This document shows, piece by piece, positions 1 through 36,688 of a stretch of DNA of 64,000 bases. The notes below the pieces were generated by a model. The model had not been told where the DNA came from. It saw nothing but the letters and a program-made list of their open reading frames with translations, and did not search any database. The position numbers and the translations under genes were made by a program. The stretch comes from Prauserella alba (GTDB lineage: Bacteria; Actinomycetota; Actinomycetes; Mycobacteriales; Pseudonocardiaceae): the NCBI RefSeq assembly GCF_024171735.1, contig NZ_JAMTCH010000003.1, positions 1,724,841-1,788,840 on the forward strand. The letters are read 5' to 3'. The first letter of the stretch is position 1; each line of letters opens with the position of its first letter.

Positions 1-833
1 CGGGTCTGATGGACGAGCTCGGTCTCGGCCACGAGGAGCTGCGGGCGGACAACCCGGGGCTGATCTACTGCTCCATCACCGGGTTCGGCGCCGGGGCAGG
101 GGCACAACTGCCCGGATACGATCTGCTGATCCAGGCGCTCGGCGGGCTGATGAGCGTGACGGGACAGCCCGACGGTGAGCCGCAGAAGGTGGGTGTCGCC
201 CTCGTCGACGTCCTGTCAGGGCAGTTCGCCACGGTCGGCGTACTCGCCGCACTCCGGCACCGCGATGCGACCGGCGAGGGCCAGCTCGTCGAGGTGAATC
301 TGCTGTCGTCGTTGCTGGCGGCACTGGTCAACCAGAGTTCGGCCTACACCTCGGGCGACGTCGTGCCGCAGCGGATGGGCAACGCGCATCCCAGCGTCGC
401 GCCGTACGAAGTGCTGCCCTGCGGTGACGGCGAGCTCGTCCTGGCCGTCGGCAACGACCGGCAGTTCCGGGCCCTGTGCGAGCGGCTGGGTGAACCGGAG
501 CTCGGCACCGACGTCCGGTTCGCCACCAACACGGCCAGGGTCGACCACCGGCAGGAGCTGCGTGAACACCTGATCCGGCTGCTGAAGGCCCGCGATGCGC
601 GCACGTGGGCCGACCTGCTCACCGAGGCGCGCGTTCCCGCGGGGGTCGTCAACGACGTGGCGGGCGCGTTCCGCCTCGCCGCGGACCTCGGCCTCGACCC
701 GGTCGTCGGGATCGCCCGCGGGGACGGCAGCGAGGTGCGGCTACCCCGCAACCCGATCGGCCTGTCCAGGACCCCGCCGTCCTACCGGTCAGCTCCCCCG
801 CCGCTCTCGGAACCGCCGCCGGTCAGCGACTGA
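1..833 (+). CDS. CaiB/BaiF family CoA-transferase, C-terminal part
   Basis: The reading frame runs in from the left edge (codons begin at base 3) and stops with TGA at 831-833, leaving about 277 residues of the C-terminal part. Visible features typical of class III CoA-transferases are the NPGLIYCSITGFG segment, the PGYDLLIQALGGLMSVTG segment and the later AGVVNDVAG segment. Such enzymes move CoA between carboxylic acids. The catalytic Asp region would lie upstream and is not in the window. Its last 52 bases overlap, in opposite orientation, the 3' end of the flavin monooxygenase gene at 782-2296. Substrate cannot be judged. Confidence 0.85.
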   Translation, partial: GLMDELGLGHEELRADNPGLIYCSITGFGAGAGAQLPGYDLLIQALGGLMSVTGQPDGEPQKVGVALVDVLSGQFATVGVLAALRHRDATGEGQLVEVNLLSSLLAALVNQSSAYTSGDVVPQRMGNAHPSVAPYEVLPCGDGELVLAVGNDRQFRALCERLGEPELGTDVRFATNTARVDHRQELREHLIRLLKARDARTWADLLTEARVPAGVVNDVAGAFRLAADLGLDPVVGIARGDGSEVRLPRNPIGLSRTPPSYRSAPPPLSEPPPVSD

Positions 834-2296
834 CGCCCGCCGGCCGCGACGCCGAAGTCCATGTCCCGGGTCACGCTGCCGTGGCGCAGCTCCAGCGCGT
901 CGCGGACGTAGTTCTGGTGGAGCCGCCACGGGGCCGCGTGTCCCTGTTTCGGCATCCGGTCGATGCTGCGCAGCACGTATCCGGCCTGCAGGTCGATCAG
1001 TGGCTGCTCGGGGCGGTCGCCCGGTGGCAGCACCGGGGTCGCGCGATCGAGCCGGTGCTCGTCGAGGTGGGTGAGCAGCCGGCACACGTACTCGGCGACG
1101 AGGTCTGCCTTGAGGGTCCACGACGCGTTCGTGTAGCCGATCGTCATCGCGAAGTTCGGCACGCCGTCGAGCATCATGCCCTTGTAGGTCACGGCACGGC
1201 CGACGTCGACCGGTTCGCCGTCGACGTCGAGCGCGATGCCGCCGATCGCGAGCAGGTTCAGTCCCGTGGCCGTCACGACGATGTCCGCGGCCAGCTCGGC
1301 GCCCGAGCCGAGCCGGATGCCGTCGGGCGTGAACGTGTCGATGGTGTCGGTGACGACCGAGGCGGCTCCGCGTCGCAGCGCGCGGAACAGGTCGCCGTCC
1401 GGAACGAAACACAGCCGCTGGTCCCACGGCCGGTACTCGGGTGAGAAGTGCCGGTCGACGTCGAACCCGTCGGGCAGCGCCGATCGCACGCCACGTTCGA
1501 TCAGCCTGCGCACGAGTCCGGGTGCGCGACGGCTGAGCCGGAAGAACAGGCCCATGCTCAGTGCGTTCTTCCAGCGCACCACGGGGAAGGTCACCCGGTC
1601 GGGCAACAGCCGCTTCAGCAACCGGGCGAGCGGATCGACCGAGGGCAGCGCCATGACGTAACTCGGCGAGCGCTGCAGCATCGTCACGTGCGCGGCGTCC
1701 GCCGACATGGCGGGCACCAGGGTCACGGCGGTGGCGCCGCTGCCGATCACCACGACGCGGCGACCGCGGTGCTCCAGATCCTCCGGCCAGTGCTGCGGGT
1801 GGACGAGCGTGCCCCGGTACCGGTCGACGCCGGGCAACTGCGGTGTGTATCCCTCGTCGTAGCGGTAGTAACCCGAGCACACGTGCAGCAGTGAACACGT
1901 CAACGTGACCTGCTCACCGGTGTCTGCCCGAACCGCAGTGACCGTCCACAGTGCCCGATCGCTGGACCAGGACGCTGAGACGACCCGGTGGTGGAACCGG
2001 ATCCGCTCGTCGATCCCGAACTCACGCGCGGTGTCGCGGATGTACTCGCGGATCGACGGCCCGTCGGCGATCGCCTCCGCCCGTCGCCACGGCCGGAACC
2101 CGTAGCCGAGCGTGAACATGTCCGAATCGGACCGCACGCCGGGATAGCGGAACTGGTCCCACGTACCCCCGATCGCGCCGCGTGCCTCGAGCACGGCCAC
2201 GGTGCGATGCGGATGCCGCTGCCGCAGCCGGCAGGCCGCGCCGACCCCGGCCAGGCCTGCGCCCACGATGAGGACGTCGACGTGTTCGGCGGGCAT
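782..2296 (-). CDS. Flavin-containing monooxygenase, Baeyer-Villiger type
   Basis: This 504-residue protein is an FAD/NADPH monooxygenase. The FAD-binding GAGLAG is at residues 12-17 and the NADPH-binding GSGATA at about 185-190. Between them is YRGTLVHPQHWP at 160-171, which fits the type I Baeyer-Villiger fingerprint (F/Y-x-G-x3-H-x3-W-P). It should insert oxygen next to a ketone or oxidise a heteroatom; the substrate is unknown. ATG at 2296 was preferred over upstream starts because GGAGGAGGG precedes it directly on the minus strand and GAGLAG then falls at the usual distance. It is divergent from the MerR gene at 2512 and its glycine-rich C-terminus overlaps the convergent CoA-transferase. 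Confidence 0.88.
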   Translation of the reverse strand: MPAEHVDVLIVGAGLAGVGAACRLRQRHPHRTVAVLEARGAIGGTWDQFRYPGVRSDSDMFTLGYGFRPWRRAEAIADGPSIREYIRDTAREFGIDERIRFHHRVVSASWSSDRALWTVTAVRADTGEQVTLTCSLLHVCSGYYRYDEGYTPQLPGVDRYRGTLVHPQHWPEDLEHRGRRVVVIGSGATAVTLVPAMSADAAHVTMLQRSPSYVMALPSVDPLARLLKRLLPDRVTFPVVRWKNALSMGLFFRLSRRAPGLVRRLIERGVRSALPDGFDVDRHFSPEYRPWDQRLCFVPDGDLFRALRRGAASVVTDTIDTFTPDGIRLGSGAELAADIVVTATGLNLLAIGGIALDVDGEPVDVGRAVTYKGMMLDGVPNFAMTIGYTNASWTLKADLVAEYVCRLLTHLDEHRLDRATPVLPPGDRPEQPLIDLQAGYVLRSIDRMPKQGHAAPWRLHQNYVRDALELRHGSVTRDMDFGVAAGGRQSLTGGGSESGGGADR

Positions 2297-2418
2297 GTCC
2301 CTCCTCCGCACCGGGGGCGACACCGCCGTCACCCGGCTGTGCTCGACGCTACCGATCATGTGATGACGGCGCCACGGCCCCGCTGCGGTCGCGGTGGCAC
2401 AGGGATCACCATCCACCC

Positions 2419-2447
2419 TTGACTGAATCTCCATTCCCGACTAAAAA
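2419..2447 (+). promoter_or_regulatory. Sigma-70-like promoter for the MerR gene
   Basis: TTGACT (2419-2424), a 17-base spacer and TAAAAA (2442-2447) stand in the FMO-MerR divergent region, one of the few AT-rich spots here. They predict a start near 2454 and a leader of about 58 nt. Confidence 0.5.
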
Positions 2448-2511
2448 ATCGTTACAGTGGCTGACTGTGTGAAGCGCAGACAGTGAGATCAGGTTTCCGG
2501 AGCGAGAGCGT

Positions 2512-2844
2512 ATGACCCTGAACGATCTGGACGACGAACACCGGCCGACGTTCACCACGGGCCAGGCAGCCGACATCCTCGGCGTCGAGCAGCCGTTCCT
2601 GCGGAGCCTCGACACGGCGGGCGTCGTCTCCCCCGAACGTTCCGGCGGCGGTCACCGGCGCTACTCCCGTCACCAGCTCGGCCGGGCGAGCCGGATGCGG
2701 GCGCTGTTCGACGAGGGCATGAACCTCAACGCGGCGCAACGCATCCTCGCACTCGAATACGAACTGGACGAAGCCCGCCGGGAGATCACGGCGCTGCGCA
2801 GACAACTCGGGGATCCGCCCGACAGCACCACCCCCGACCCCTGA
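2512..2844 (+). CDS. MerR family regulator, HspR-like
   Basis: This 110-residue protein has an N-terminal winged helix (TTGQAADILGV, then SGGGHRRYSRHQL) and the D-E-G-M-N-L-N-A-A-Q-R-I-L segment that recalls HspR. A short coiled-coil tail (LEYELDEARREITALRRQL) follows. It has no effector domain, so it is the short HspR-like class rather than a metal or drug sensor. It is divergent from the monooxygenase at 782-2296, which makes that gene a likely target. No HAIR/IR repeat or chaperone gene lies nearby, so it is not the DnaK-operon HspR. Confidence 0.8.
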   Translation: MTLNDLDDEHRPTFTTGQAADILGVEQPFLRSLDTAGVVSPERSGGGHRRYSRHQLGRASRMRALFDEGMNLNAAQRILALEYELDEARREITALRRQLGDPPDSTTPDP

Positions 2845-3019
2845 GCACGACGCTGCGAGCGAGCACGTGCCCGCGCAGGCAGCGCACCCCACATCCCGCA
2901 CGGGACTGCGAGACATCGGATTGCGAGACATCGCGCCGGGCGAGCCGCGTGCGACCGCCCCGGAGCGCGAACCGCCGGCGCAGCCGCGCGTCGGCCACGA
3001 CGAATCGAGGTGATCACCA

Positions 3020-3481
3020 GTGGACGTCCACGATTGGCACTCGACGGAACCGGCACTGCACGCCTACTCCTCCGCCGTCGCCGCCGCACTCACACCCCAC
3101 GACGACGGCCCCGCGCAGTACACCTGCGACGCCTCCACCACACCCGCGAGCGCGTACATCGCCGTGGCGGGGCGTCTTCCCGGCTTCCCGGACCGCGACG
3201 TAGCCCTCGTCTGGGACGAGCGGCACGGCTGGGGTGCGGCGATCGAGACCCACTCGGGCGAGGATCTGCTGATGGTGTCCTATCTCGGCGGGAACGACCC
3301 CGTTCCCGAGCCGGACCGCGTCGCACGGTTCGCGGCGAGGGTTCTCGACGGTGCGCCACCACGTCACCTCGACCCACCGGAGTTCGCCACGCTGCCGGAT
3401 CTGCCCCGGCGGCTGACCACGGCCGCCGCCACCGCCGATGCTCCCGGCCAGGAAACCGCCTCAGCAGCGCGCGTGCTCTGA
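3020..3481 (+). CDS. DUF6292 family protein
   Basis: This 153-residue protein of unknown function starts at GTG 3020, preceded by GAGGTGATCACCA. The central block A-Y-I-A-V-A-G-R-L-P-G-F-P-D-R-D-V-A-L-V-W-D, followed by E-R-H-G-W-G-A-A, is what I recognise as the DUF6292 signature of Pseudonocardiaceae and relatives. There is no signal peptide or membrane segment. Function has not been assigned for the family. It is convergent with the pentapeptide-repeat gene and is probably a single-gene unit. Confidence 0.7.
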   Translation: MDVHDWHSTEPALHAYSSAVAAALTPHDDGPAQYTCDASTTPASAYIAVAGRLPGFPDRDVALVWDERHGWGAAIETHSGEDLLMVSYLGGNDPVPEPDRVARFAARVLDGAPPRHLDPPEFATLPDLPRRLTTAAATADAPGQETASAARVL

Positions 3482-3567
3482 CACCGGCTCCGGTACCAGC
3501 GCCTGCCCCCAGCGCCCTGCCACCGGCCGCGCTGCGATCGATGCGCTCCGGTACCGAATCCGCGAGG

Positions 3568-4403
3568 TCAACCCGCCCAGTGCGAGGGGGCGCGTGCCCA
3601 GCCGGGCAGCCGGGTGGCCGCGTCCCCTCGAGCGGCGTCGAGCTGCGCCTGGGTCAGAAACACCGTCTCGGCCAGCGCGGCACCCGACAGATCCGCCCCT
3701 CGCAGATCGGCGCCGGTAACGTCGGCGAGCGTGAGGTCCGCCGCCCGCAGATCGGCCCCGAGCAGCACCGCACCCCGCAGATTCGCGCCCCGCAGATCCG
3801 CTCTCCGGAGACCGGCCGCGACGAGGTCGGCGCCCCGCAGCTCACGCCCCGCAGCTCACGCCCCGCAGCCGGTGCCCTCAGCAGCTCGCTCGCCCGCGTG
3901 AGCACGGCGTTCGCCTCCGCCCAGTGGTCGGCGAGAGACATCTGCGCGAGCTCGTCGAGCCCGCGAGCGGCCAGCCGTTCCGTCGCGTCGATCGTCTCGT
4001 CCAGCTCGCCGTGTACCTCGGCCGCCGCCGCGAAGCCTCGCGCCTCGTGGAGGTAGTACAGCAGCTCGTGCAGGTCCCGGAGCACCGGATAGGCGGTGAA
4101 CATGCGCCGCGCGCGTTCGGCGTCGCCGCGCCAGTCACCGCCCGCCCGTGCAGCCACGTTCTGGCCCGCACCGAAGCAGTCGTAGACGGTGCAGCCGGGG
4201 AACCCGCGGTCGCGCAGCGTGTCGTGGACACCGCACCACGAATCCTCGCGCAGATGCGGGCACGGTGTCTCCGCGGGCTTGGTGATCGCGAAATCGGCCG
4301 ACGCCACGAAACCCGGCGCCACGCAACAGATTCCGTAACACTGCCCGCAGTCCGCGCGCAACCGTTCCCGGAATCCGCGGTCCGGTGTGGACACCTCGGT
4401 CAT
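3568..4403 (-). pseudogene. Pentapeptide-repeat protein, frameshifted by 14-bp duplication
   Basis: The N-terminal part starts at ATG 4403 behind GGAGGAGAGT. It has a cysteine cluster (CGQCYGICC, then CPHL, CGVH and GFPGCTVYDCFGAGQ) like YkgJ-type metal-chelating modules. The C-terminal part, in another frame from about 3840 down to the TGA at 3568-3570, is made of A(D/N)LxxA repeats such as [12 protein letters not shown]. The frames part at two perfect copies of a 14-bp unit (3841-3854 and 3855-3868). Removing one copy gives one 273-residue frame running [12 protein letters not shown]. As written, the protein reads on out of frame to 3654. This is a recent disruption, a switchable locus or an assembly error. 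Confidence 0.85.
3841..3868. repeat. Perfect 14-bp tandem duplication
   Basis: The unit CTCACGCCCCGCAG occurs twice back to back inside the pentapeptide-repeat gene. The length is not a multiple of three, so it breaks the frame. Confidence 0.95.
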
Positions 4404-4412
4404 ACTCTCCTC

Positions 4413-4492
4413 CGAACCAGTGACACCCCGATGCAGTGACACTGCGAACCAGTGACACCGCGATTCAATGGCACCCCGCATCACCGACACCG
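4413..4492. repeat. Five degenerate 16-bp tandem repeats
   Basis: Five exact-period units start at 4413, 4429, 4445, 4461 and 4477; the type unit is CGAACCAGTGACACCC. They end 10 bp upstream of the pentapeptide gene's ATG (minus strand), in its leader or promoter. Most units keep the GTGACAC core. They could be stacked operators or a length-variable tract. Confidence 0.85.
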
Positions 4493-4616
4493 ACCGCCGA
4501 GAACCCCGCACCCGAAGCGCCCGACGGCGACGTCCACCCTAGGTGCTGCGCCGCTACGCTCGAACAGCACGGCACCCGTACCGGACACCGCCGCGCCGAC
4601 GAAAGGACATGCGCCG

Positions 4617-5300
4617 ATGAGCACGCTGCAGACGCTCGACCGGGGCCTGCGCGCGCTCGACGTGATCTCGCAGGCACCGAGCGGCATGTCGGTGGCCGAG
4701 CTCGCGCGCAGGCTCGACGTGCACCGCGCCATCTGCTATCGCATCGTGTCCACGCTCGAGGAACACCAGCTCATCGCCAGGACCGAGGACGGAAAACTGC
4801 GCCTCGCCGTCGGAGTGTCGGTGCTCGCCGCCCGCTTCGAACCCCAGCTCCACCACGACGTGCGGCCCCTGTTGCAGGAACTGGCCAACGACACCCGAGC
4901 GACCGCCTTCCTGTCCGCCGCCGAGGGCGGCGACTGTGTCGCGCTGCAGGTCGCGGAACCGGACGCCCAGCTGCTCACGGTCGGCTACCGGGTGGGCAGC
5001 AGGCACCCGCTGTCCAAGGGCGCCGCAGGCATCGCGATCCTGGCCAGGCGCCCGGCACAGCCCGACGACGCCGCCGCGGTGGTCCGCGCCCGCCAGGACG
5101 GTTACAGCCTCACGCGGGGCGAACTCGAACACGGCGCCGTCGGCGTGGCGGCCGGCATCGGGATTCCCGAGGGCAGACAGGCGGTCGGGCACGCCGAGCG
5201 GTCGGTCGGCGTCGTGGCGATCGAAGGCCTCGACACCGACCGGGCCGCACAGGCCGTGCTCCGCACGGCACGACGACTGGAAGAACTCCTCGCCACCTGA
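4617..5300 (+). CDS. IclR family transcriptional regulator
   Basis: This 227-residue protein has an N-terminal winged helix (GMSVAELARRLDVHRAICYRI, residues about 20-45) and a C-terminal effector domain with KGAAGIAILA and a terminal V-G-V-V-A-I-E-G segment. It is somewhat short for the family (about 250). ATG 4617 follows GAAAGGA and fits the usual IclR N-terminus; the frame stays open to 4452 but that part is low-complexity. It lies 400 bp upstream of the P450-reductase fusion in the same direction, so control of that gene and its transporter is a reasonable guess. The ligand cannot be inferred. Confidence 0.88.
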   Translation: MSTLQTLDRGLRALDVISQAPSGMSVAELARRLDVHRAICYRIVSTLEEHQLIARTEDGKLRLAVGVSVLAARFEPQLHHDVRPLLQELANDTRATAFLSAAEGGDCVALQVAEPDAQLLTVGYRVGSRHPLSKGAAGIAILARRPAQPDDAAAVVRARQDGYSLTRGELEHGAVGVAAGIGIPEGRQAVGHAERSVGVVAIEGLDTDRAAQAVLRTARRLEELLAT

Positions 5301-5465
5301 CACATTCCGACGCTCGGCGCGGCGCAGCGAACCCCTCTCCACTGCGCCCCTCCCCGCAGCACCCCTCCCGACTGCGCCTCTCGCGCCCTCCGCTCCGTCT
5401 CTCCCCCGCCGTCCCGGACGCGGCAGTTTCCCCGGGCCGCGCCGACCGACCGGCACTGTCGCCAC

Positions 5466-5494
5466 TTGACGCCCACGGTGGTCCCGCTTATCTT
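5466..5494 (+). promoter_or_regulatory. Sigma-70-like promoter upstream of the P450 gene
   Basis: TTGACG (5466-5471), a 17-base spacer and TATCTT (5489-5494) give a good actinobacterial housekeeping-type promoter. Transcription from it would have a leader of about 200 nt that includes the repeats at 5583-5636. Confidence 0.5.
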
Positions 5495-5582
5495 CCACGT
5501 GTTCACTATTCGATCTGTGGTGTGCGATATTGGTAACACTGCAGGTTGCGGCACCACGGCCGAAGGTCACGTCACCCACACG

Positions 5583-5636
5583 TCGCGGTCACACCACCGA
5601 TCGCGGTCACACCACGGGTCGCCGTGGCACAGCGCG
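5583..5636. repeat. 18-bp tandem repeats in the P450 leader
   Basis: Two near-identical units (TCGCGGTCACACCAC plus CGA or GGG) at 5583-5600 and 5601-5618 are followed by a degenerate third at 5619. They lie 65-118 bp upstream of the P450 start and could bind the neighbouring IclR regulator. Confidence 0.7.
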
Positions 5637-5700
5637 TCGCAGGAGCGCCGTAGGTCGCAGTAGCGCGTAGATCGCGGCAGAGACGCCGAGGAGGGCGCCG

Positions 5701-8022
5701 ATGAGCACAGAGTCGTGTCCCGCCGACCACGTCGATCGTCCGACCGATCCGGTCTCTGGCTGTCCGGTCAGTGCCGGCGCGGCGGCGTTCGATCCGTTCG
5801 GCGACGCGTACCAGGCCGACCCGCCGGAAGCCGTGCGCTGGTCCCGCGACGACGAGCCGGTGTTCTACAGCCCGTCACTCGGCTACTGGGTCGTGACGCG
5901 CTACGACGACGTGAAAGCGGTCTTCCGCGACAACACGACGTTCTCCCCCTCGATCGCGCTGGAGAAGATCACTCCCGTCTCCGACGAGGCGATCGCGACG
6001 CTCGAACGCTACGACTACGCGATGAACCGCACCCTCGTGAACGAGGACGAGCCCGAGCACATGCCGCGCCGCCGCGTGCTGATGGGCCCGTTCACCCCCG
6101 ACCGGCTCGCCCACCACGAGCCCATCGTCCGCAGGCTCACCCGCGAGTACGTCGACCGGTTCGTCGACGTGGGCAAGGCCGACCTCGTCGACGAGATGCT
6201 GTGGGAGGTCCCGCTCACCGTCGCGCTGCACTTCCTCGGCGTGCCCGAGGAGGACATGGCGACGCTGCGCAAGTACTCGATCGCCCACACCGTCAACACG
6301 TGGGGCAGGCCTTCACCGGAGGAGCAGCTCACGGTCGCCGAGAACGTCGGCAAGTTCTGGCAGTTCGCGGGCACGGTCGTCGAAAAGCTCCGGCGCGACC
6401 CGTCCGGCGACGGCTGGATGCCCTACAGCATCCGCAAGCAGCGGGAGTACCCGGACATCATCACCGACTCCTACCTCCACTCGATGATGATGGCCGGCAT
6501 CGTCGCGGCGCACGAGACGACCGCCAACGCCGCGGCCAACGCACTGAAACTCCTGCTGGAGAACCGCACGGTGTGGGACGAGCTCTGCGCCGATCCAGGA
6601 CTGATCCCCAACGCCGTCGAGGAATGCCTGCGGCACTCCGGGTCGGTGGCCGCATGGCGGCGACTCGTCACCGCCGACACCACCGTCGGCGGCGTGCCCG
6701 TCCCCGCGGGGGCGAAGCTGCTGATCGTCAACTCCTCGGCCAACCGCGACGAACGGCACTTCGAGGACCCGGACACCGTCGACGTCCGCAGGGACAATGC
6801 GACCGAGCACCTGACGTTCGGCTACGGCAGCCACCAGTGCATGGGCAAGAACCTCGCGCGGATGGAGCTGCAGGTGTTCCTCGAAGAGCTCACACGCAGA
6901 CTGCCGCATCTCGACCTGGTGCCCGGCCAGCGGTTCAGCTACGTCCCGAACACGTCGTTCCGCGGCCCGGAGCACCTGTGGGTGCAGTGGGATCCCGCGG
7001 CCAACCCGGAACGCAGCGAGCCGGGCCTGTTGGACACCCGGCAGCCGGTGCGCATCGGCGAGCCCACCACCCGCGGGCTCAGCCGCACCCTCACCGTGGA
7101 GCGGGTCGACCCCACCGCCCGCGACGTCGTCGAGATCACGCTGGCCGAACCGACCGGCGCGGCCCTGCCGTCGTGGTCCCCCGGCGCCCACATCGAGCTG
7201 GAACTCGGGGAGGTGTCCCGGCAGTACTCGCTGTGCGGCGATCCCGAGGACCGGAGCCGCTACCGCATCGCCGTGCTGCGTGATCCCGGCAGCCGTGGCG
7301 GCTCCCGGTACGTGCACGACGAGCTGCGGCCGGGGACGTCCGTCGCCGTCCGTGGCCCGCGGAACCACTTCCGCCTCGACGCCGACACCCGCCACCACGT
7401 GTTCGTCGCGGGTGGCATCGGCATCACCCCGATCCTCGCGATGGCCGATGCCGTATGCGCCGCGGGCGGCAGCTACGAGCTGCACTACTGCGGCCGCTCG
7501 ACCGGCACCATGGCGCTGCTCGACCGGGTGCGCCGCGACCACGGGCCGCGCCTGCACGAACACGTCTCCGAGGCCGGCGACCGGCTCGACGTCACCGCGC
7601 TGCTCGCCGAGCCCACCGACGGCACGCGGATCTACGCGTGCGGTCCGCAGCGGCTCCTGTCGGCACTCGACGGCGCCAGTGCGCACTGGCCCGGGGACGC
7701 CCTCCGCGTCGAACACTTCACCACCGCGGGCCACGAGCTCGACCCGGCCGTCGAGCACGCCTTCGACCTCACCCTCGCCGATTCCGGCCTCACCGTGCGG
7801 GTCGCCCCCGATCAGACCGTTCTCGCGGCGTTGCGCGCCGCCAACATCGACGTGCCCAGCGACTGCGAGGAAGGCCTCTGCGGCACGTGTGAGGCACCGG
7901 TGCTCGGCGGCGAGGTCGACCACCGCGACGTCGTGCTCACCCGCTCCGAACGGTCGGCGGGCACCAGGATGATGACCTGCTGCTCCCGCGCCTGCGGCGC
8001 CTCGCTCACGCTCGGCCTCTGA
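5701..8022 (+). CDS. Self-sufficient cytochrome P450-reductase fusion (CYP116B-like)
   Basis: This 773-residue protein joins a P450 to a phthalate-dioxygenase-type reductase, so NAD(P)H electrons reach the haem in one chain. The P450 part (about 1-450) has the I-helix AGIVAAHETT, an ExxR (ECLR) and haem loop FGYGSHQCMG with Cys380. The reductase part has the flavin motif RQYSL near 507 and the nucleotide motif GGIGITPI. The C-terminal [2Fe-2S] domain has Cys722, 727 and 730 plus Cys760. ATG 5701 follows GAGGAGGG. Length and order match the CYP116B class, which hydroxylates or dealkylates small substrates. A transporter follows 70 bp on and probably imports the substrate. Confidence 0.93.
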   Translation: MSTESCPADHVDRPTDPVSGCPVSAGAAAFDPFGDAYQADPPEAVRWSRDDEPVFYSPSLGYWVVTRYDDVKAVFRDNTTFSPSIALEKITPVSDEAIATLERYDYAMNRTLVNEDEPEHMPRRRVLMGPFTPDRLAHHEPIVRRLTREYVDRFVDVGKADLVDEMLWEVPLTVALHFLGVPEEDMATLRKYSIAHTVNTWGRPSPEEQLTVAENVGKFWQFAGTVVEKLRRDPSGDGWMPYSIRKQREYPDIITDSYLHSMMMAGIVAAHETTANAAANALKLLLENRTVWDELCADPGLIPNAVEECLRHSGSVAAWRRLVTADTTVGGVPVPAGAKLLIVNSSANRDERHFEDPDTVDVRRDNATEHLTFGYGSHQCMGKNLARMELQVFLEELTRRLPHLDLVPGQRFSYVPNTSFRGPEHLWVQWDPAANPERSEPGLLDTRQPVRIGEPTTRGLSRTLTVERVDPTARDVVEITLAEPTGAALPSWSPGAHIELELGEVSRQYSLCGDPEDRSRYRIAVLRDPGSRGGSRYVHDELRPGTSVAVRGPRNHFRLDADTRHHVFVAGGIGITPILAMADAVCAAGGSYELHYCGRSTGTMALLDRVRRDHGPRLHEHVSEAGDRLDVTALLAEPTDGTRIYACGPQRLLSALDGASAHWPGDALRVEHFTTAGHELDPAVEHAFDLTLADSGLTVRVAPDQTVLAALRAANIDVPSDCEEGLCGTCEAPVLGGEVDHRDVVLTRSERSAGTRMMTCCSRACGASLTLGL

Positions 8023-8092
8023 TCCCCCGCTCCCCTCCTCCGGTTCTCCCCACCCTCGGGTTCCCCACCCCTTGCGAAAGGACCGTCCGACA

Positions 8093-9442
8093 ATGACGTC
8101 ATCGGCCTCCCCGCGCGTCGACGACCTGCCCCGCAGGCGCGGCACGAGTTTCCGCCGCGTCCTGACCGGATCGATGGCAGGCGCCGTCCTCGAGTGGTAC
8201 GACTTCGCCATCTACGGCGTGCTCGCCGCGACCGTGCTCGGCCCGCTCTTCTTCCCTGGCGAGAGCGACATCATCAAACTGCTGCTCGCACTCGCCACGC
8301 AGGGAATCGGGTTCATCGCCCGGCCGCTCGGCGGGATCGTGTTCGGCCACCTCGGTGACAAGTTCGGCCGCAAGCCGATGCTCGTCACGACGTTCCTGCT
8401 GCTGGGCACGTCCACTGCGGCGATCGGCCTGCTGCCGACCTACGAGCAGGTCGGGGTGTGGGCGACGCTGCTGCTCGTGCTGCTCCGGCTGACCCAGGGC
8501 TTCGCGCTCGGCGGCGAGTTCGGCGCAGCCGTGCTGATGGTCAGCGAGTACGGCGAGCCGAAACGCCGCGGGTTCTGGGCGTCGTGGCCGCAGGCGGGCG
8601 CGCCGCTCGGCACGGTGCTCGCCACCGTCGTGGTCACCACCATCGCGCTGGTGTTTCCGGGTGACGCGTTCGACCAGTGGGGTTGGCGACTCGCGTTCCT
8701 CGTCGCACTGCCGCTGCTGGTCATCGGCTTCTGGGTGCGCCGCAGCGTCGAGGAGTCGCCGGTGTTCCAGGCCGCGCAGGAACGTGCCGCCGTGCAGCCG
8801 GAGAACGCCCCGGCGGCGACCACGCCGCGCCGGTCCAGCGTGCTGGAGGCACTCCGGAATCCGCGCCCGGTGGTGCACGGCCTCGGCATGCGCCTCGGCG
8901 AGAACATCGCCTTCTACATCTACACCGTGTTCGTCATCGCCTACGCCACGACGTACTTCGGCTACGAACGGGGCGACGTCGTCCTGGCGGTCACCTTCGC
9001 ATCGGCGGCGCAGTTCGCGGGCATGATCGGCGGCGGCGCGTGGTCGGACAGAGTGGGCAGGAAGAAGGCGATGCTCGTCCCGTCGGTGCTGCTCGTCGTC
9101 TGGGCGCCGCTGTTCTTCGTGCTCGTGCAGCAGGAGAGCCTGCCACTGCTGTGGCTGGGCACGTGTGTCGGCGCCTTCCTGCACGGCATGCTCGCCGGGC
9201 CCGAGGCCGCGTGGATCACCGAGCTGTTCCCGACGCGGCGCCGGTACGCCGGATCCTCACTGGTGTTCCAGGGCTCGTCGATCATCGCCGGGGCCCCGGC
9301 CCCGTTCATCGCCGTGTGGCTCATCGACTCGTTCGGCGTCGGCATGGTCGTCGGCTATCTGGTCGTCACGATGCTGATCACCGTGATCGCCGTCGCGACG
9401 AGCAAGGAGACCCGGGGAAGCGACCTCGACCGGGTGGAGTGA
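8093..9442 (+). CDS. MHS-type MFS transporter
   Basis: This 449-residue protein has about 12 membrane segments and belongs to the metabolite:H+ symporter branch of the MFS. The early GAVLEWYDFAIYG segment, the GHLGDKFGRKPML loop and RLTQGFALGGEFG are characteristic. Family members take up organic acids, aromatic acids or betaines by proton symport. ATG 8093 follows GAAAGGA; the upstream in-frame start at 8072 is less well placed. It starts 70 bp after the P450 fusion, so co-transcription is likely, and it ends at a strong hairpin at 9450-9476. Confidence 0.9.
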   Translation: MTSSASPRVDDLPRRRGTSFRRVLTGSMAGAVLEWYDFAIYGVLAATVLGPLFFPGESDIIKLLLALATQGIGFIARPLGGIVFGHLGDKFGRKPMLVTTFLLLGTSTAAIGLLPTYEQVGVWATLLLVLLRLTQGFALGGEFGAAVLMVSEYGEPKRRGFWASWPQAGAPLGTVLATVVVTTIALVFPGDAFDQWGWRLAFLVALPLLVIGFWVRRSVEESPVFQAAQERAAVQPENAPAATTPRRSSVLEALRNPRPVVHGLGMRLGENIAFYIYTVFVIAYATTYFGYERGDVVLAVTFASAAQFAGMIGGGAWSDRVGRKKAMLVPSVLLVVWAPLFFVLVQQESLPLLWLGTCVGAFLHGMLAGPEAAWITELFPTRRRYAGSSLVFQGSSIIAGAPAPFIAVWLIDSFGVGMVVGYLVVTMLITVIAVATSKETRGSDLDRVE

Positions 9443-9449
9443 CGGCCGC

Positions 9450-9476
9450 CGGGTGCCGGCGGCGCGCCGGCACCCG
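9450..9476. terminator. Bidirectional hairpin terminator
   Basis: A 12-bp stem (CGGGTGCCGGCG with its complement) and a 3-nt loop fill the gap between the converging MFS and DUF2277 genes. Confidence 0.8.
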
Positions 9477-9749
9477 TCAGGTCCGTTTCGCTGCCTCCCT
9501 GGCCTGCACTTCGGGACGACGAAGAGGTGGCACGGTCCGCGGTGGCTGCCGCCGTTCGGGCAGCTGCGCCAGCAGCCGCGTCGTCGTGGCGGTCACCTCG
9601 GCGACGGCCTGTTCGAACGGCTCGCGGGTCGCATCGGACACGCTCTGGACGCCGCTGACCTTCCGCACGTACTGCCGCGCGGCCGCCTCGATCTCCTCGG
9701 GTGTGGCCGACGGTTCGAGTCCCCGCAGGGTCGTGATGTTCCGGCACAT
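9477..9749 (-). CDS. DUF2277 family protein
   Basis: This 90-residue protein starts MCRNITTLRGLEP at ATG 9749. With the following A-T-P-E-E-I-E-A-A-A-R-Q-Y-V-R-K-V-S-G block, that is the recognisable start of DUF2277. The family has no established function; many members end in a basic tail, as here. It is divergent from the TetR gene at 9918 and convergent with the transporter. Confidence 0.85.
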   Translation of the reverse strand: MCRNITTLRGLEPSATPEEIEAAARQYVRKVSGVQSVSDATREPFEQAVAEVTATTTRLLAQLPERRQPPRTVPPLRRPEVQAREAAKRT

Positions 9750-9881
9750 GATGGTGACGGTAGTCGCTGCCGGGGTCGCCGGCGACAGTTCGACCCGGCG
9801 CCCGGTTCGGGCGCCGAGCCGCGCTTCCCCATGTCGGCTGCGCCGGGAATGCTCGAATTCCATCACTGATTGAAACGCCAC

Positions 9882-9911
9882 TTGAAGGCGCGCCACCGCT
9901 GCGTGTCTACT
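9882..9911 (+). promoter_or_regulatory. Leaderless promoter of the TetR gene
   Basis: TTGAAG (9882-9887), an 18-base spacer and TCTACT (9906-9911) end six bases before the ATG at 9918. That spacing predicts a transcript starting at or next to the start codon. Confidence 0.5.
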
Positions 9912-9917
9912 GGCCGC

Positions 9918-10550
9918 ATGCCAACGACGGCCGCATCCTCGGCCCTGCCCGCGCCCGCAGTCGACGCCGGCCGGCCGAGTACCCGCGACCGGCTGCTCGA
10001 TGCGGCCGAATCCCTGTTGCTCGCGCGGGACATCGACGAGGTCTCCATCCGCGCCATCAATGCCGCCGCGGGCATGAACCCGGCGGCCGTGCACTACCAC
10101 TTCGGTTCGAAGGAAGCACTCATCGGCGCGCTCCTCGAACGACGCCTGGCACCCCATTGGCACGACGGCCTCACCCGGCTCACCGCCCGCCACCGCGCGG
10201 GTGACCCACCGGCGGTCGGGGAGCTCGTCGACGTCGTGCTGACCCCGCTCGGCGAGCTGACCCGCACCGAGCACGGCCGCCTGCAGCTGCGGCTGCTGGC
10301 CCGGGTCGTGCTGGCGCGACGTGACGTCGGGTTCGCCTCCGGCTGGTTCGGGTTGCGGCCGTGGATCGCGCTCCTGCGCACTGCGGTACCCGGGCTCGGC
10401 GGCACGGAAGCCGCGCGCAGACTGCTGCTGGCCTTCGACCTCATCCTGCACACCCTGTCCGCAGCCGGACCGGCGGAACCGCCGACGCGCGGCAGCTTCC
10501 GCTCACTGCGCGCGTTCACCGTCGCCGGGCTCTCCGCCCCGCCGCGATGA
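9918..10550 (+). CDS. TetR family regulator
   Basis: This 210-residue protein has an N-terminal TetR DNA-binding domain: STRDRLLDAAESLLL, helix-turn-helix around VSIRAINAAAGMNPAAVHYHF and the G-S-K-E-A-L-I end. The variable ligand domain follows. ATG 9918 has no Shine-Dalgarno but sits six bases after a -10-like TCTACT, so it looks leaderless. The old-yellow-enzyme gene starts 44 bp downstream in the same direction. The pair probably forms an operon with the regulator sensing an enone or related compound, which is inference. Confidence 0.88.
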   Translation: MPTTAASSALPAPAVDAGRPSTRDRLLDAAESLLLARDIDEVSIRAINAAAGMNPAAVHYHFGSKEALIGALLERRLAPHWHDGLTRLTARHRAGDPPAVGELVDVVLTPLGELTRTEHGRLQLRLLARVVLARRDVGFASGWFGLRPWIALLRTAVPGLGGTEAARRLLLAFDLILHTLSAAGPAEPPTRGSFRSLRAFTVAGLSAPPR

Positions 10551-10594
10551 CGCGCCCCGAACCGGCACGCACCCGGCCCGTACGTGGAGGCCCC

Positions 10595-11773
10595 GTGACC
10601 ACAGCAGTTCCGGACGTCTTCGACTCCGCCACACTCGGACCGGTCACGTTGCGCAACCGCATCATCAAGGCGGCGACGTTCGAAGGCCGCACTCCGGCGG
10701 GCGCCGTCACCGACGCCCTCGTCGACTTCCACGTCGAGGTCGCCCGCGGCGGCGCGGGCATGACGACCGTCGCCTACTGCGCGGTCGCCCCGGAGGGCCG
10801 GACCGATCGTCACCAGATCCTGATGCGGCCCGAGGCCGTGCCGGACCTGCGCAGGCTCACCGATGCGGTGCATGCGGAAGGGGCCGCCGTCAGCGCTCAG
10901 CTCGGCCACGCGGGACCGGTCGCCAACGGCGCGTCGAATGGCCTTCCCGCCCTCGCTCCCCACGCACTGCCCAGCCCGCTCAGCATGCGCGTGATGCGGC
11001 GCGCGAGCGAGTCCGACCTCGCCGGGGTCGTCGCAGCACACGCCGACGCCGCGCGGGTCGCGGTGGCTGCCGGGTTCGACGCCGTCGAGCTTCATTTCGG
11101 CCACAACTACCTGATCAGCTCGTTCCTCAGCCCCGCCCTGAACCGCAGGTCCGACGGCTACGGCGGCTCGCTCGCGCGCCGGGCGCGACTCGCCAGGGAC
11201 ACCGCCGCCGCGGTGCGCGACGCCGTGGGCAGCCGGGTCGCCGTCACCGCCAAGCTCAACATGGACGACGGCGTACCGGGCGGGCTCTGGCTGGACGAGA
11301 GCCTGCAGGTCGCGCGCCGGCTCGAGGCCGACGGCACCCTCGATGCGCTGGCCCTCACGGCCGGCAGCTCGCTGCTCAACCCGATGTACCTGTTCACCGG
11401 GGACGCCCCCGTGAAGGAGTTCGCGGGAGCGTTCGGCACACCGCTGCGGACCGGGCTGCGCCTCGCGGGTTCGGCGTTCCTGCGCAGCTACCCCTACCGG
11501 GACGCCTACCTGCTCGACCGTGCGCTCCAGTTCCGTGACGCCCTCGACCTGCCGCTCGTGCTGCTGGGCGGCATCACCGGTCGCGACACGATGGACCTGG
11601 CGATGGGCCACGGCTTCGCGTTCGTCGCCATGGCCAGGGCACTGCTGCGCGAACCCGATCTGCCGAACCGGCTGCGGTCCGAACCGCAGCACCGTTCGCT
11701 GTGCGTGCATTGCAACAAGTGCATGCCGACCATCTACCGCCGCACCCGGTGCGTGCTCACCGCGCCCGAGTGA
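10595..11773 (+). CDS. Old yellow enzyme family NADH:flavin oxidoreductase
   Basis: This 392-residue FMN enzyme starts at GTG 10595 behind GTGGAGG; an ATG at 10547 overlapping the TetR stop is possible but lacks a ribosome site. N-terminal FDSATLGPVTLRNRIIKAA and the active-site block HFGHNYLISSFLSP are typical. The LNRRSDGYGGS segment supports the wider family that includes 2,4-dienoyl-CoA reductase. The C-terminal C-V-H-C-N-K-C is a cysteine cluster, but the rest of an Fe-S/FAD module is absent, so it is the single-domain form. It reduces activated C=C bonds; the substrate is unknown. Confidence 0.87.
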   Translation: MTTAVPDVFDSATLGPVTLRNRIIKAATFEGRTPAGAVTDALVDFHVEVARGGAGMTTVAYCAVAPEGRTDRHQILMRPEAVPDLRRLTDAVHAEGAAVSAQLGHAGPVANGASNGLPALAPHALPSPLSMRVMRRASESDLAGVVAAHADAARVAVAAGFDAVELHFGHNYLISSFLSPALNRRSDGYGGSLARRARLARDTAAAVRDAVGSRVAVTAKLNMDDGVPGGLWLDESLQVARRLEADGTLDALALTAGSSLLNPMYLFTGDAPVKEFAGAFGTPLRTGLRLAGSAFLRSYPYRDAYLLDRALQFRDALDLPLVLLGGITGRDTMDLAMGHGFAFVAMARALLREPDLPNRLRSEPQHRSLCVHCNKCMPTIYRRTRCVLTAPE

Positions 11774-11787
11774 GGTCGGCCCGGCCG

Positions 11788-12408
11788 CTACTCGAACCGC
11801 GAGGGGTCTCCGGCACCGACCCGCACGATCTCCGGCTCGTCGCCGCTGAAGTCGACGACGGTCGTCGGCTCGATCCCGCAGTCGCCCGAGTCGATCACCG
11901 CATCCAGCACGTGGTCGAGCGCCTCCTTGATCTCCCAGCCCTGCGTGAGCGGCTCATCCTCCCCCGGCAGCAGCAGGGTGCTCGACACGAGCGGCTCACC
12001 GAGCCCCTCCAGCAGCGCCTGGGTCGTCACGTGGTCCGGAATGCGCACACCGACGGTCTTCTTCTTCGGGTGCAGCAGCCGCCGCGGCACTTCCTTCGTC
12101 GCGGGCAGGATGAACGTGTACTGGCCGGGTGTCGCGGACTTGATCGCCCGGAAGACGCTGTTGTCGACGTGGACGAACTGCCCCAACTGCGAGAAGTCCT
12201 GGCACACGAGGGTGAAGTGGTGCTTGTCGTCCAGCTTGCGGATGCTCCGGATCCGGTCGAGACCCTCACGATTGTCGAGCGAGGTACCGAGCGCGAAACA
12301 CGAATCCGTGGGGTAGGCGATCAGCCCGCCGGAGCGGAGCAGGTCGACGACCTTACCGATCGACCGCGGCTGAGGATTGTCCTGATGTACGTCGTAGTAG
12401 ACCGCCAT
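11788..12408 (-). CDS. YciO/YrdC/Sua5 family protein (threonylcarbamoyl-AMP synthase-like)
   Basis: This 206-residue protein shows the YrdC fold: SGGLIAYPTDSCFALG, RSIRKLDDKHHFTLVC, and SATPGQYTFILPATKEVPRR with VGVRIPDH. These match the KxR and SxN positions that bind ATP in YrdC-type enzymes, which make L-threonylcarbamoyl-AMP for tRNA t6A. The sequence is closest to the YciO subgroup, whose role is less certain, and the essential paralogue is normally elsewhere with prmC. ATG 12408 was chosen; a GTG three codons upstream is possible. It is not in an operon with translation genes. Confidence 0.82.
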   Translation of the reverse strand: MAVYYDVHQDNPQPRSIGKVVDLLRSGGLIAYPTDSCFALGTSLDNREGLDRIRSIRKLDDKHHFTLVCQDFSQLGQFVHVDNSVFRAIKSATPGQYTFILPATKEVPRRLLHPKKKTVGVRIPDHVTTQALLEGLGEPLVSSTLLLPGEDEPLTQGWEIKEALDHVLDAVIDSGDCGIEPTTVVDFSGDEPEIVRVGAGDPSRFE

Positions 12409-23705: not shown

Positions 23706-25169
23706 CTAGAGATGTGAGCGCACTCGAACGCAAGCGCGCCATCGAGCAATGTCCCCGGTCAGCACTCCTAGAACGGTGGGTTGTCGTCTAGAACGGTGGG
23801 TTGTCGTCGTGCTTCCGTTGCGGCGGGACCGGTTCCCGCTCCGGTTCGATGCGGGACGGTGTCGGGTCGCTGCGGTAGTCGGGATCGCCACGGTGTCGGG
23901 GATCGACGCGGTAGTCGGGGTGGTCGAGGTCGGCGCAATAACCACGGTCGCGGGGGACGGCTCTGGGCCGGGTTGCGCAGCGTGGCCAGGTTGCGCGTTG
24001 TCCCGCCGTCGTCGCGGGTCGAGGACGGGTTCGCGGTGGCCGGTGTAGGTCGCGCCGTGTGGGGTCGTCACCCGGGTGACGCCGTGGCCGGGGTCGTAGC
24101 CGGTGATCCACCCGGGTTGGTCTTTGAGCCGGTGGTGCCGCCGGCACCGCGGACCGCCGTTGGCCACCGACGTGGCTCCGCCCGCTGCGGCCCACGGGCG
24201 TTCGTGGTCGTGGTCGCAATGCCGTGCCGGACGGTGGCACCACGGCATGACACATTCCCGGTCCCGCACCCGCACCAAGTCCCGGATCACCGCGCTCGGC
24301 CGCCGACGCGTCCGCCCCAGGTCGACCGGTTCACCCGTGCCGGGATCGCACAGCACTGCACGCCAAATGCTGCGGGAGTTGGTCATGATCTCCCGCGCGA
24401 CCGGGGCGGGAATGGGTCCGTAACCGTCCAGCTCGCATCCCTCGTCGGAGATCGTCAGGGCCGCATCGACGGGAACGTGCAGGTGCACCATGGCCGCCGC
24501 TTCTGGCACCGTCACGCCAGGGTCACGGCCCAGCAGCAGGTCCGCGGTCACGTCCGCCCGCAGCTGATCCAACGTGCGCACGTCACCGCCGCGGCGCAGT
24601 GACCGGGCCATCCCATCCACGCGCGTATAGCACGCCGCCGCGACCTCCGCAGGCAGGCTCACGTCGAGTGACGACATCACGTGCTCGCCCGGTGTGAGTT
24701 CGACCCGGCGTTCCGAACGCGCCCGCCGCGCACGTTCGGTCTGCCCATCGGGGTCCACCTTCTCCACCAACCGGCGCACCCGCTGGGCCAGATTCACCGG
24801 CTGCCACGCCGTCGCCGGCGCATCCACCAACCGTTCCGCCAGCAGACCATCCACTTGCCGGGCGGCCCCGTCGTCGAGCGGGTCGACCGCGGCCAGTACC
24901 CGCCGCACCCCGTACGACTCGAGTTCACCGGTACGCATCGAGTCGAGCAGCTGCGGCATCCGCCGCACCACCGACACACCGTCATCGATCCGACGTTCCA
25001 CCTCGCGCGTCGAAACCCGCAGCACCGGCGTCAACTCCTCCGCCACGCCACGGTCGTCACCCACGGCAGCAGAGATGCGGGCGAGTAGCGCCAACTCCTC
25101 GGCATCGAGCTGCGCCCGCCGAGCGCGAATCTCCCGTGCCCGTTCGATCATGTCCCCCACGTCATCCAC
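23706..25169 (-). CDS. DUF222 / HNH endonuclease (13E12 type)
   Basis: This protein of about 487 residues has an N-terminal DUF222 domain (REIRARRAQLDAEELALL, VRRVLAAVDPLDDG) and a C-terminal HNH module: R-D-R-E-C-V-M-P-W-C, then C-D-H-D-H-E-R-P-W, NGGPRCRRHHRLK. Cys and His residues of the HNH zinc site are all present. GTG 25169 was chosen because TATAGT lies 7 bp upstream and a LexA-like box overlaps the promoter. The family is multicopy in actinobacteria and part of the mycobacterial damage response. The C-terminal tail looks odd: another frame ends HDDNPPF, a common family terminus, at a 20-bp duplication. Confidence 0.85.
   Translation of the reverse strand: MDDVGDMIERAREIRARRAQLDAEELALLARISAAVGDDRGVAEELTPVLRVSTREVERRIDDGVSVVRRMPQLLDSMRTGELESYGVRRVLAAVDPLDDGAARQVDGLLAERLVDAPATAWQPVNLAQRVRRLVEKVDPDGQTERARRARSERRVELTPGEHVMSSLDVSLPAEVAAACYTRVDGMARSLRRGGDVRTLDQLRADVTADLLLGRDPGVTVPEAAAMVHLHVPVDAALTISDEGCELDGYGPIPAPVAREIMTNSRSIWRAVLCDPGTGEPVDLGRTRRRPSAVIRDLVRVRDRECVMPWCHRPARHCDHDHERPWAAAGGATSVANGGPRCRRHHRLKDQPGWITGYDPGHGVTRVTTPHGATYTGHREPVLDPRRRRDNAQPGHAAQPGPEPSPATVVIAPTSTTPTTASIPDTVAIPTTAATRHRPASNRSGNRSRRNGSTTTTHRSRRQPTVLGVLTGDIARWRACVRVRSHL
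23769..23808. repeat. Perfect 20-bp tandem duplication at the HNH gene 3' end
   Basis: The unit beginning TAGAACGGTGGGTTG recurs without mismatch at 23769-23788 and 23789-23808. It spans the sequence that would encode the DDNPPF-stop terminus in the alternative frame. Confidence 0.93.
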
Positions 25170-25176
25170 GCCATCA

Positions 25177-25198
25177 ACTATACCGAACACTTGGTCGA
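25177..25198 (-). promoter_or_regulatory. LexA-like SOS box and leaderless promoter
   Basis: On the minus strand TCGACC-AAGT-GTTCGG (25183-25198) matches the actinobacterial LexA box TCGAAC-N4-GTTCGA at 10 of 12 positions. It is followed directly by TATAGT (25177-25182), which lies 7 bp before the HNH gene's GTG. LexA bound here would cover the promoter. Confidence 0.6.
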
Positions 25199-25479
25199 AT
25201 AGACGACTGCACAATAGGGTGAACAACTACAGCGAAACGGGCAGAAACCCGACATTCCCTCAACCACGCGAAACAGCTTCACCCCGGCTCAAAGCGCACG
25301 CAGCCAGCAATTCCACCGAATCGAACGTGCCACGCGACTGACCCCGCCGGCCTCCGGACCACGTGGCCACTTGTCCACCACTGAGCCGCAGTAGTGTCGA
25401 TGAATGAGTACTGCCATTTCCGTACTGCAACCGCCGTTCACGTCGTTCGCGCGAAGCCGTCGACCGCGACGTGCTCCCG
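25199..25479. other. Gap between HNH and FAD monooxygenase genes
   Basis: This stretch is visibly richer in A and T than its surroundings. I see no gene, RNA or clear hairpin in it. It separates two leftward units and may mark an old insertion boundary. Confidence 0.45.
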
Positions 25480-35332: not shown

Positions 35333-36688
35333 ATGCCGGCGAACGGCCTGCGCACCGCCTCGCGGATTTCGTTGACCCTGGCCGCACTGGCGGCAATGCT
35401 GCTCGGGTCGCTGACCCTGTTGGGCGGGTCGCGCGCCGCGGCCGCGCCCGAAAGCGTTCCCGGCATCGACGTCTCGGGACATCAGGAGAACGTCGACTGG
35501 CAGCACGCGTGGAACACCGGCGCACGGTTCGCCTACATCAAGGCCACCGAGGGCACCGGCTTCACCAACTCGTACTTCCCCCAGCAGTACAACGGCGCCC
35601 ACGACGTCGGCATGATCCGCGGCGCCTATCACTTCGCGCGCCCGGACGTCGGCCCGGCGGCACCGCAGGCCGACTACTTCGTCGCGAACGGCGGTGGCTG
35701 GTCGGCGGACGGCAAGACGCTGCCCCCGCTGCTCGACATGGAGTACAACCCGTACGGGGCCGACCCGTGTTACGGCCGATCGCACGGCAGCATGGTCCGG
35801 TGGATCAAGAACTTCTCCGAGCGGATCCACTCCAAGACCGGCCGCTGGCCGATGATCTACACGACCACGGACTGGTGGAAGAGCTGCACCGGCAACACCC
35901 CCCGGTTCGGCAGCGACCACCCGCTGTTCATCGCGCGCTACAACGACCGCGTCGGTGAGCTGCCCAACGGCTGGACCCACTACACGCTGTGGCAGTACAA
36001 CGATCACGGCCCGATGCCCGGCGACCAGAACACCTTCAACGGCTCGATGGCACAGCTGAAGCAGCTGGCCCTCGGTGACGAGGGCAAGTCGGAACCGGAG
36101 CCGAAGCCGGAACCGAAACCCGAGCCGAAGCCCGAACCCGACCCGAAGCCCGAACCCGACCCGAAGCCCGAACCCGACCCGGAACCGAAGCCCGAACCTG
36201 AGCCCAGCCCGGAACCGAGTCCGGAGCCGTCCACACCGGAATCGCCGGAGTCCGATGTGCCGGATGCGCCGGCCGACGACGACGCCGCCGACGACCGCGA
36301 CGAGCCGGCCGATCCTCAGGCCGGCGACACCGGCGGTGACCAGGGACAGGACGGTGACAGCACCGGCGCAGGGTCCGACGAGGCAGCGTCTGAGGATGCA
36401 GGGGCCGACGATGCGGGCGAAGCGTCCAACCGGAACGCCGTCGCCGACGGCACCGGTGACGACCAGCTCGTGTTGCAGGAAGCACCGAAGCAGGCGGCCG
36501 AACAGGCTCCGCAGTCGCAGGACAAGACCGGATCGGACGTGTCCACCCAGGAAAGTGGTCCGGACGAACTCGCCGAGACGGGGTCCGCGCAGGATGTGCC
36601 ACGCCTGATCGTGTTCGCCGCGGCGATGATCGTGCTCGGCCTGATCGTCCTGACGCTCACTCGCGCGCCCGCACGCGCCCGCCGCTGA
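35333..36688 (+). CDS. Cell-wall-anchored GH25 lysozyme with LAETG sorting signal
   Basis: This 451-residue exported protein has a signal peptide (about 1-38, ending S-R-A-A-A-A). The GH25 domain is about 42-245, with Asp46 in GIDVSGH and Asp135/Glu137 in LLDMEYN as catalytic acids and TLWQYNDHG near the end. A stalk of EPKPEPDP-type repeats and an acidic region (about 247-410) follow. The C-terminus is LAETG (413-417), a hydrophobic helix and a basic tail, the sorting signal of class E sortases (LAxTG). ATG 35333 follows GGGAGGA. It should cleave the muramic-glucosamine bond while tethered to the wall. Confidence 0.9.
   Translation: MPANGLRTASRISLTLAALAAMLLGSLTLLGGSRAAAAPESVPGIDVSGHQENVDWQHAWNTGARFAYIKATEGTGFTNSYFPQQYNGAHDVGMIRGAYHFARPDVGPAAPQADYFVANGGGWSADGKTLPPLLDMEYNPYGADPCYGRSHGSMVRWIKNFSERIHSKTGRWPMIYTTTDWWKSCTGNTPRFGSDHPLFIARYNDRVGELPNGWTHYTLWQYNDHGPMPGDQNTFNGSMAQLKQLALGDEGKSEPEPKPEPKPEPKPEPDPKPEPDPKPEPDPEPKPEPEPSPEPSPEPSTPESPESDVPDAPADDDAADDRDEPADPQAGDTGGDQGQDGDSTGAGSDEAASEDAGADDAGEASNRNAVADGTGDDQLVLQEAPKQAAEQAPQSQDKTGSDVSTQESGPDELAETGSAQDVPRLIVFAAAMIVLGLIVLTLTRAPARARR

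Follow-up and report, generated by a model that had tools for sequence, protein, structure and literature searches.

A probable recent loss-of-function frameshift by slippage in a conserved two-module gene of a Prauserella genome

A gene on the minus strand of the window (the whole stretch of 64,000 nucleotides analysed here) is interrupted by a perfect tandem repeat with a 14-bp unit. In relatives the gene encodes, in a single frame, a Cys-rich module, a helical region and a pentapeptide-repeat C-terminus. The interruption in this Prauserella genome is most probably a recent loss-of-function frameshift that arose by slippage in a conserved two-module gene. From comparison of the sequence with its orthologues we infer slippage as the molecular step, the loss of function and the recency of the event.

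Results

Two perfect copies of CTCACGCCCCGCAG are located at 3841-3854 and 3855-3868. The first-pass annotation had proposed that they shift the reading frame, and this is confirmed; the pair at 3841-3868 is contained in a longer tract of period 14 on the minus strand (3831-3869; 39 bp, 2.8 copies, 100% matches). The self-match of the tract at this period extends over 25 positions. Tandem-repeat listing and the gaps against five orthologues (L003, L004, L005, L033 and L032) indicate that the orthologues have one unit fewer. As 14 is not a multiple of 3, a change in copy number alters the frame, and the frame is broken here. First-order Markov simulation of 30 windows of 64 kb yielded no self-match run of at least 20 positions at periods 4-60, the largest being 16, while the real window contains six such runs. 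Five exact arrays with runs of at least 20 are present in the window, two of which have a period that is not a multiple of 3: the 14-bp tract at 3831-3869 and a 20-bp array at 23768-23808. A search of the same genome with a 24-base piece of the tract, allowing up to 3 mismatches, returned only two overlapping places, both inside the tract.

At 23768-23808, the 3' end of a gene that we take to be DUF222/HNH-like holds a 20-bp sequence duplicated perfectly in tandem, together with one further base. One frame there terminates in DDNPPF within the repeat, and the long ORF at 23706-25226 continues in another frame; this gene end may also be frame-shifted. The family is multicopy, with 25 matches in the genome. 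A further array, at 36092-36205, has an 18-bp unit in about 3.8 copies (96% matches), a period that is a multiple of 3.

The first frame of the split gene starts with ATG at 4403 and ends at a stop codon at 3656-3654, giving a product of 249 residues. By alignment, its N-terminal part (3846-4403, 186 codons) comprises the Cys-rich module and the helical domain, the helices being taken from a structure model of the orthologue L003, and runs to the motif RELRG. Fused to it is a frame-shifted tail of 63 codons (3654-3845). The severed C-terminal part (3568-3855, 95 codons) is a pentapeptide-repeat domain that matches PF00805 (E 4e-20; 71.5 bits against a cut-off of 20.2, and thus above the curated threshold). 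With stops at 3858 and 3570, its frame is open over 3855-3571 and closes with the normal stop codon, 3570-3568. From 4403 to 3571 there are 833 nt; subtraction of 14 leaves 819 nt, or 273 codons, which is the length of intact L003, the nearest orthologue. The arithmetic therefore agrees with the earlier proposal that deletion of one copy yields an ORF of 273 residues.

Aligned with three congeneric orthologues (L003, L004 and L005), the window's genome carries one clean insertion of 14 bp where the β-helix starts. This bears out the claim that the duplication breaks the gene between its two modules. The same 14-bp gap was observed against L033 and L032 when the surrounding syntenic block was compared. 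This block includes genes for an FMO-like monooxygenase, a MerR protein, a DUF6292 protein, an IclR protein, a fused P450 and an MFS transporter (Pfam), as well as a presumably CaiB-like gene. Over the syntenic 9.5 kb (eight genes), the only other frameshift-sized gaps against L033/L032 are near the upstream end of the FMO-like ORF, where they probably fall before the true start, and in the IclR gene at its stop end. No structured RNA was found at the gathering threshold in positions 1-12000 of the window.

Near the IclR regulator and the MFS transporter, an ORF of 773 residues (5701-8022) encodes a cytochrome P450 joined to a 2Fe-2S ferredoxin domain through a middle part with weak similarity to DmmA (31.1 bits against a cut-off of 33). 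The ORF has the appearance of a self-sufficient P450.

Among the named relatives, Prauserella salsuginis, Prauserella isguenensis and Prauserella aidingensis match best, with 88%, 86% and 84% identity in the N-terminal part, respectively; we assign the genome to Prauserella on this basis. Searching seven Prauserella genomes with a 273-residue orthologue as query, we found one continuous gene in four (G002, G003, G004 and G006), whereas in the window's own genome the gene is in two pieces, which cover query residues 1-212 and 175-273. In G001 and G005, the only matches were weak and belonged to other pentapeptide ORFs. A distance of 145 bp separates the flanking genes in G005, compared with 1110 bp in the window; we read this as a clean loss of the gene with the flanks adjacent. 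G001 is 91% complete, and its IclR side could not be located close to the other flank; this genome was therefore left uncounted as a loss. With the same query, the only matches in the window's own genome were the two halves and one weak match to a pentapeptide ORF on contig 3 (E 1.6e-4), with no compensating paralogue. The gene is best read as conserved yet dispensable.

Orthologues were also examined for the same two copies together with a conserved alternative C-terminus, the pattern that the first-pass annotation had set against its own reading. Loci were selected on the N-terminus only, as the best 80 of 571 candidates in the named genome collection, and all 80 continue uninterrupted to the normal C-terminus; in four (L078, L098, L104 and L105) the motif pattern failed to match and the end was judged intact by eye. 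For these loci, a conserved alternative C-terminus is thereby rejected. Among the family-wide matches listed by E-value, a ranking that is biased towards intact genes and is not a count, all but the window's own reach query residue 271-273. Five of the matches listed with a stop inside the gene were checked (L129, L131, L133, L136 and L139), and all five reach the natural end.

All 36 aligned orthologues encode the Cys-rich module, the helical region and the pentapeptide-repeat C-terminus in a single frame. Eight cysteines (5, 8, 12, 13, 34, 43, 57 and 62) and His 46 are invariant in this alignment, and the C-terminus ends in a conserved FLTQxQLxAARGD...HW stretch. The structure model of L003 (mean pLDDT 87.1, pTM 0.84) places helices within residues 59-162 and β-helix strands from about residue 168. 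The Cys-rich module is modelled with less certainty (block means 56-86 over residues 1-60). RELRG corresponds to residues 168-172, so that the duplication falls at the predicted boundary between helices and β-helix. The broken product would thus keep the N-terminal part and lose the β-helix, and the N-terminal product might work on its own.

PF00805 is matched by 36 of the 36 aligned orthologues at E <= 0.1. The N-terminal part alone matched no Pfam family at E <= 1. The Cys pattern of this module resembles that of the YkgJ-type CxxCxxCC family (PF03692); this candidate was rejected, being absent among the matches of the 36 orthologues at E <= 0.1, and its profile matched none of 26 genomes (the control was positive in 9 of 14 genomes). 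A structural search with the L003 model gave 25 matches at E <= 0.001, all of them pentapeptide-repeat proteins or designed solenoids, with none for the N-terminal module. We found no described function for a two-module Cys-rich/pentapeptide protein, and none of the titles retrieved from an open-licence library concerned the two-module family or a 14-bp in-gene switch in an actinomycete.

The family was found in Actinobacteria, Bacillales and Ktedonobacter. Loci from Ectobacillus, Paenibacillus, Gordonibacillus and Ktedonobacter (L045, L049, L082, L090, L097 and L108) have an N-terminal part with 48-52% identity. This spread suggests either inter-phylum transfer or an old family.

A 14-bp duplication in unrepeated sequence gives 28 bp. 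The tract has 39 bp, or 28 + 11, implying that a direct repeat of 11 bp, spaced by 14 bp, was already present in the parent sequence; slippage would be expected to use such a substrate. Inspected by eye, the two 11-bp arms share 8 of 11 positions in L003 and all 11 in the window's gene, through three synonymous differences. At one such site the codon is CGA in L003, L004 and L005, CGC in L006 and CGG in the window's gene, so the change at that site is probably derived here.

Exact repeat pairs (11 bp or more, spacings of 8-45 bp) were then counted in 99 distinct related genes, with the window's gene left out. After the first 170 codons there were 142 in-frame pairs and no frame-breaking pair; shuffling of synonymous codons in this part gave 163 in-frame pairs and 1 frame-breaking pair. 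Thus, the periodicity of the protein explains the in-frame repeats. Over the whole genes, two frame-breaking pairs were found among the 99 (L044 and L075), neither at spacing 14. The frame-breaking pair in the window's gene looks like an accident of its own lineage.

These comparisons are consistent with the following sequence of events. Where the two modules meet, synonymous changes would have given rise to a direct repeat of 11 bp, spaced by 14 bp. One 14-bp unit would then have been added when the arms of this repeat underwent slipped-strand mispairing, and the extra unit would have shifted the frame, removing the β-helix from the protein.

Divergence from L003 was measured for both parts of the split gene. 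For the N-terminal part we obtained a dS of 0.426, a dN of 0.064 and a dN/dS of 0.149; the corresponding values for the C-terminal part are 0.365, 0.045 and 0.125. When differences were polarised with L004-L006, the C-terminal part had 9 synonymous and 2 nonsynonymous changes on the focal branch and 5 and 4 on the L003 branch, and the N-terminal part had 9 and 8 on the focal branch and 14 and 5 on the L003 branch; these counts are small, ambiguous sites having been dropped (11 of 31 in the C-terminal and 36 of 72 in the N-terminal part). For a neutral C-terminal part, about 20 nonsynonymous changes would be expected per 9 synonymous changes, based on site counts from the pairwise comparison. 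As the severed part is still constrained, the break appears recent relative to the split from L003. It is the retained N-terminal part, not the severed C-terminal part, that looks more relaxed, a pattern not expected from a simple recent break.

The constraint on the C-terminal part fits equally well an artefact of assembly or sequencing or a mutation in a single culture, with a natural gene that is intact and has one copy fewer. The lack of internal stops in the severed part and the draft state of the 5.6-Mb genome (11 contigs) agree with this explanation. We nevertheless consider it improbable, because a 39-bp tract is, as is generally known, shorter than ordinary reads, and because no gap of this kind was found within the main body of the seven remaining syntenic genes.

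Discussion

The first-pass annotation had suggested that the gene may be switched on and off by expansion and contraction of the repeat, and this suggestion is not supported. A phase-variable switch would mean that the tract changes length often, toggles the full-length protein and is under selection. The unit length, not a multiple of 3, would serve such a switch, contraction is plausible given a perfect self-match of 25 bp, and the severed part has not decayed. Moreover, the copy number of promoter tandem repeats in M. tuberculosis, also an actinobacterium, is reported to vary at 10^-2 to 10^-3 per chromosome (PMC12817950). However, the repeats described there are promoter units (57 and 58 bp, for two genes), and their layout differs from the present one (PMC12817950). 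The tract studied here has fewer than 3 copies and is absent from the three aligned orthologues; a period-14 pair occurs in none of the 99 related genes, only two of which have a frame-breaking pair of at least 11 bp, and one congener is without the gene. The absence of the tract from relatives is not decisive, because sets of phase-variable genes differ strongly between strains, as a review describes (PMC11868660), so that a young, unconserved switch is conceivable. Retention of the tract in relatives is, in the same text, usual and not obligatory for core phase-variable genes (PMC11868660), and such retention was not found here. Taken together, we regard a switch as distinctly improbable. 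Reversal by slippage is possible in principle; nothing here indicates use as a switch.

Recoding by a ribosomal frameshift, or a selected 249-residue product with a useful new C-terminus, is highly improbable. The two frames do share an open stretch of about 200 nt. However, a programmed frameshift is rejected for lack of an X XXY YYZ heptamer in the overlap (the sole one found in the first frame is at 4314); the severed frame has no ATG, GTG or TTG codon within 3560-3900 apart from GTG at 3768 and 3663; the shifted tail has no counterpart in any of the 80 loci; and no Pfam family matched the 249-residue frame at E <= 0.001.

Recent inactivation by slippage is thus the preferred reading. It makes this a well-resolved case in which synonymous changes appear to have created the slippage substrate that breaks a gene, at a stage when decay of the severed part is not yet visible. 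The apparent split gene would be a derived state, and annotating two proteins here would therefore mislead. No new system is revealed; the intact family, with an N-terminus that matches no named family, is the more interesting object than the break.

The C-terminal part resembles the MfpA and Qnr pentapeptide-repeat proteins in being a pentapeptide β-helix, and PDB entries 6zt4, 2bm4 and 2xtw are among the matches. Unlike these proteins, the intact protein has a Cys-rich and helical N-terminus. Against NCBIfam, all scores of the C-terminal part are below the curated cut-offs (Alr5209, the best, 56.5 of 125 bits; MfpA 27.8 of 360; Qnr 17.7 of 240).

A parallel for the duplication itself is found in ssp1, a gene of fission yeast. 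Microhomology-mediated tandem duplications (MTDs) in ssp1 are described in a review as in-gene and reversible events in fungi (PMC13207564). Both cases involve a short in-gene duplication, pre-existing microhomology arms and a premature stop; the present case differs in concerning a bacterium, with a mechanism deduced from sequence alone, and reversibility is described for ssp1 (PMC13207564). By extension, tandem duplications at chance microhomologies could be a common and reversible way of inactivating dispensable actinomycete genes, with this allele as one state of a standing population mixture, as in the yeast MTDs. We consider this generalization unlikely.

Closer to the genus, a study in Mycobacterium smegmatis describes misalignment of direct repeats that is independent of RecA-type recombination and of end joining (PMC3519483). 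Repeat misalignment in an actinobacterium is common to both cases, but that study measured deletions, with repeats of 38 bp separated by about 1 kb, whereas here a 14-bp duplication is seen (PMC3519483). The M. tuberculosis promoter repeats likewise provide tandem repeats with copy-number change in an actinobacterium; there, the repeats are reported to alter expression and the variation is seen in reads and strains, whereas the repeat described here is coding and known from one assembly (PMC12817950). Although these repeats differ in length and place from the 14-bp tract, the instability reported for M. tuberculosis (PMC12817950) and M. smegmatis (PMC3519483) indicates that reversal is possible in an actinobacterium.
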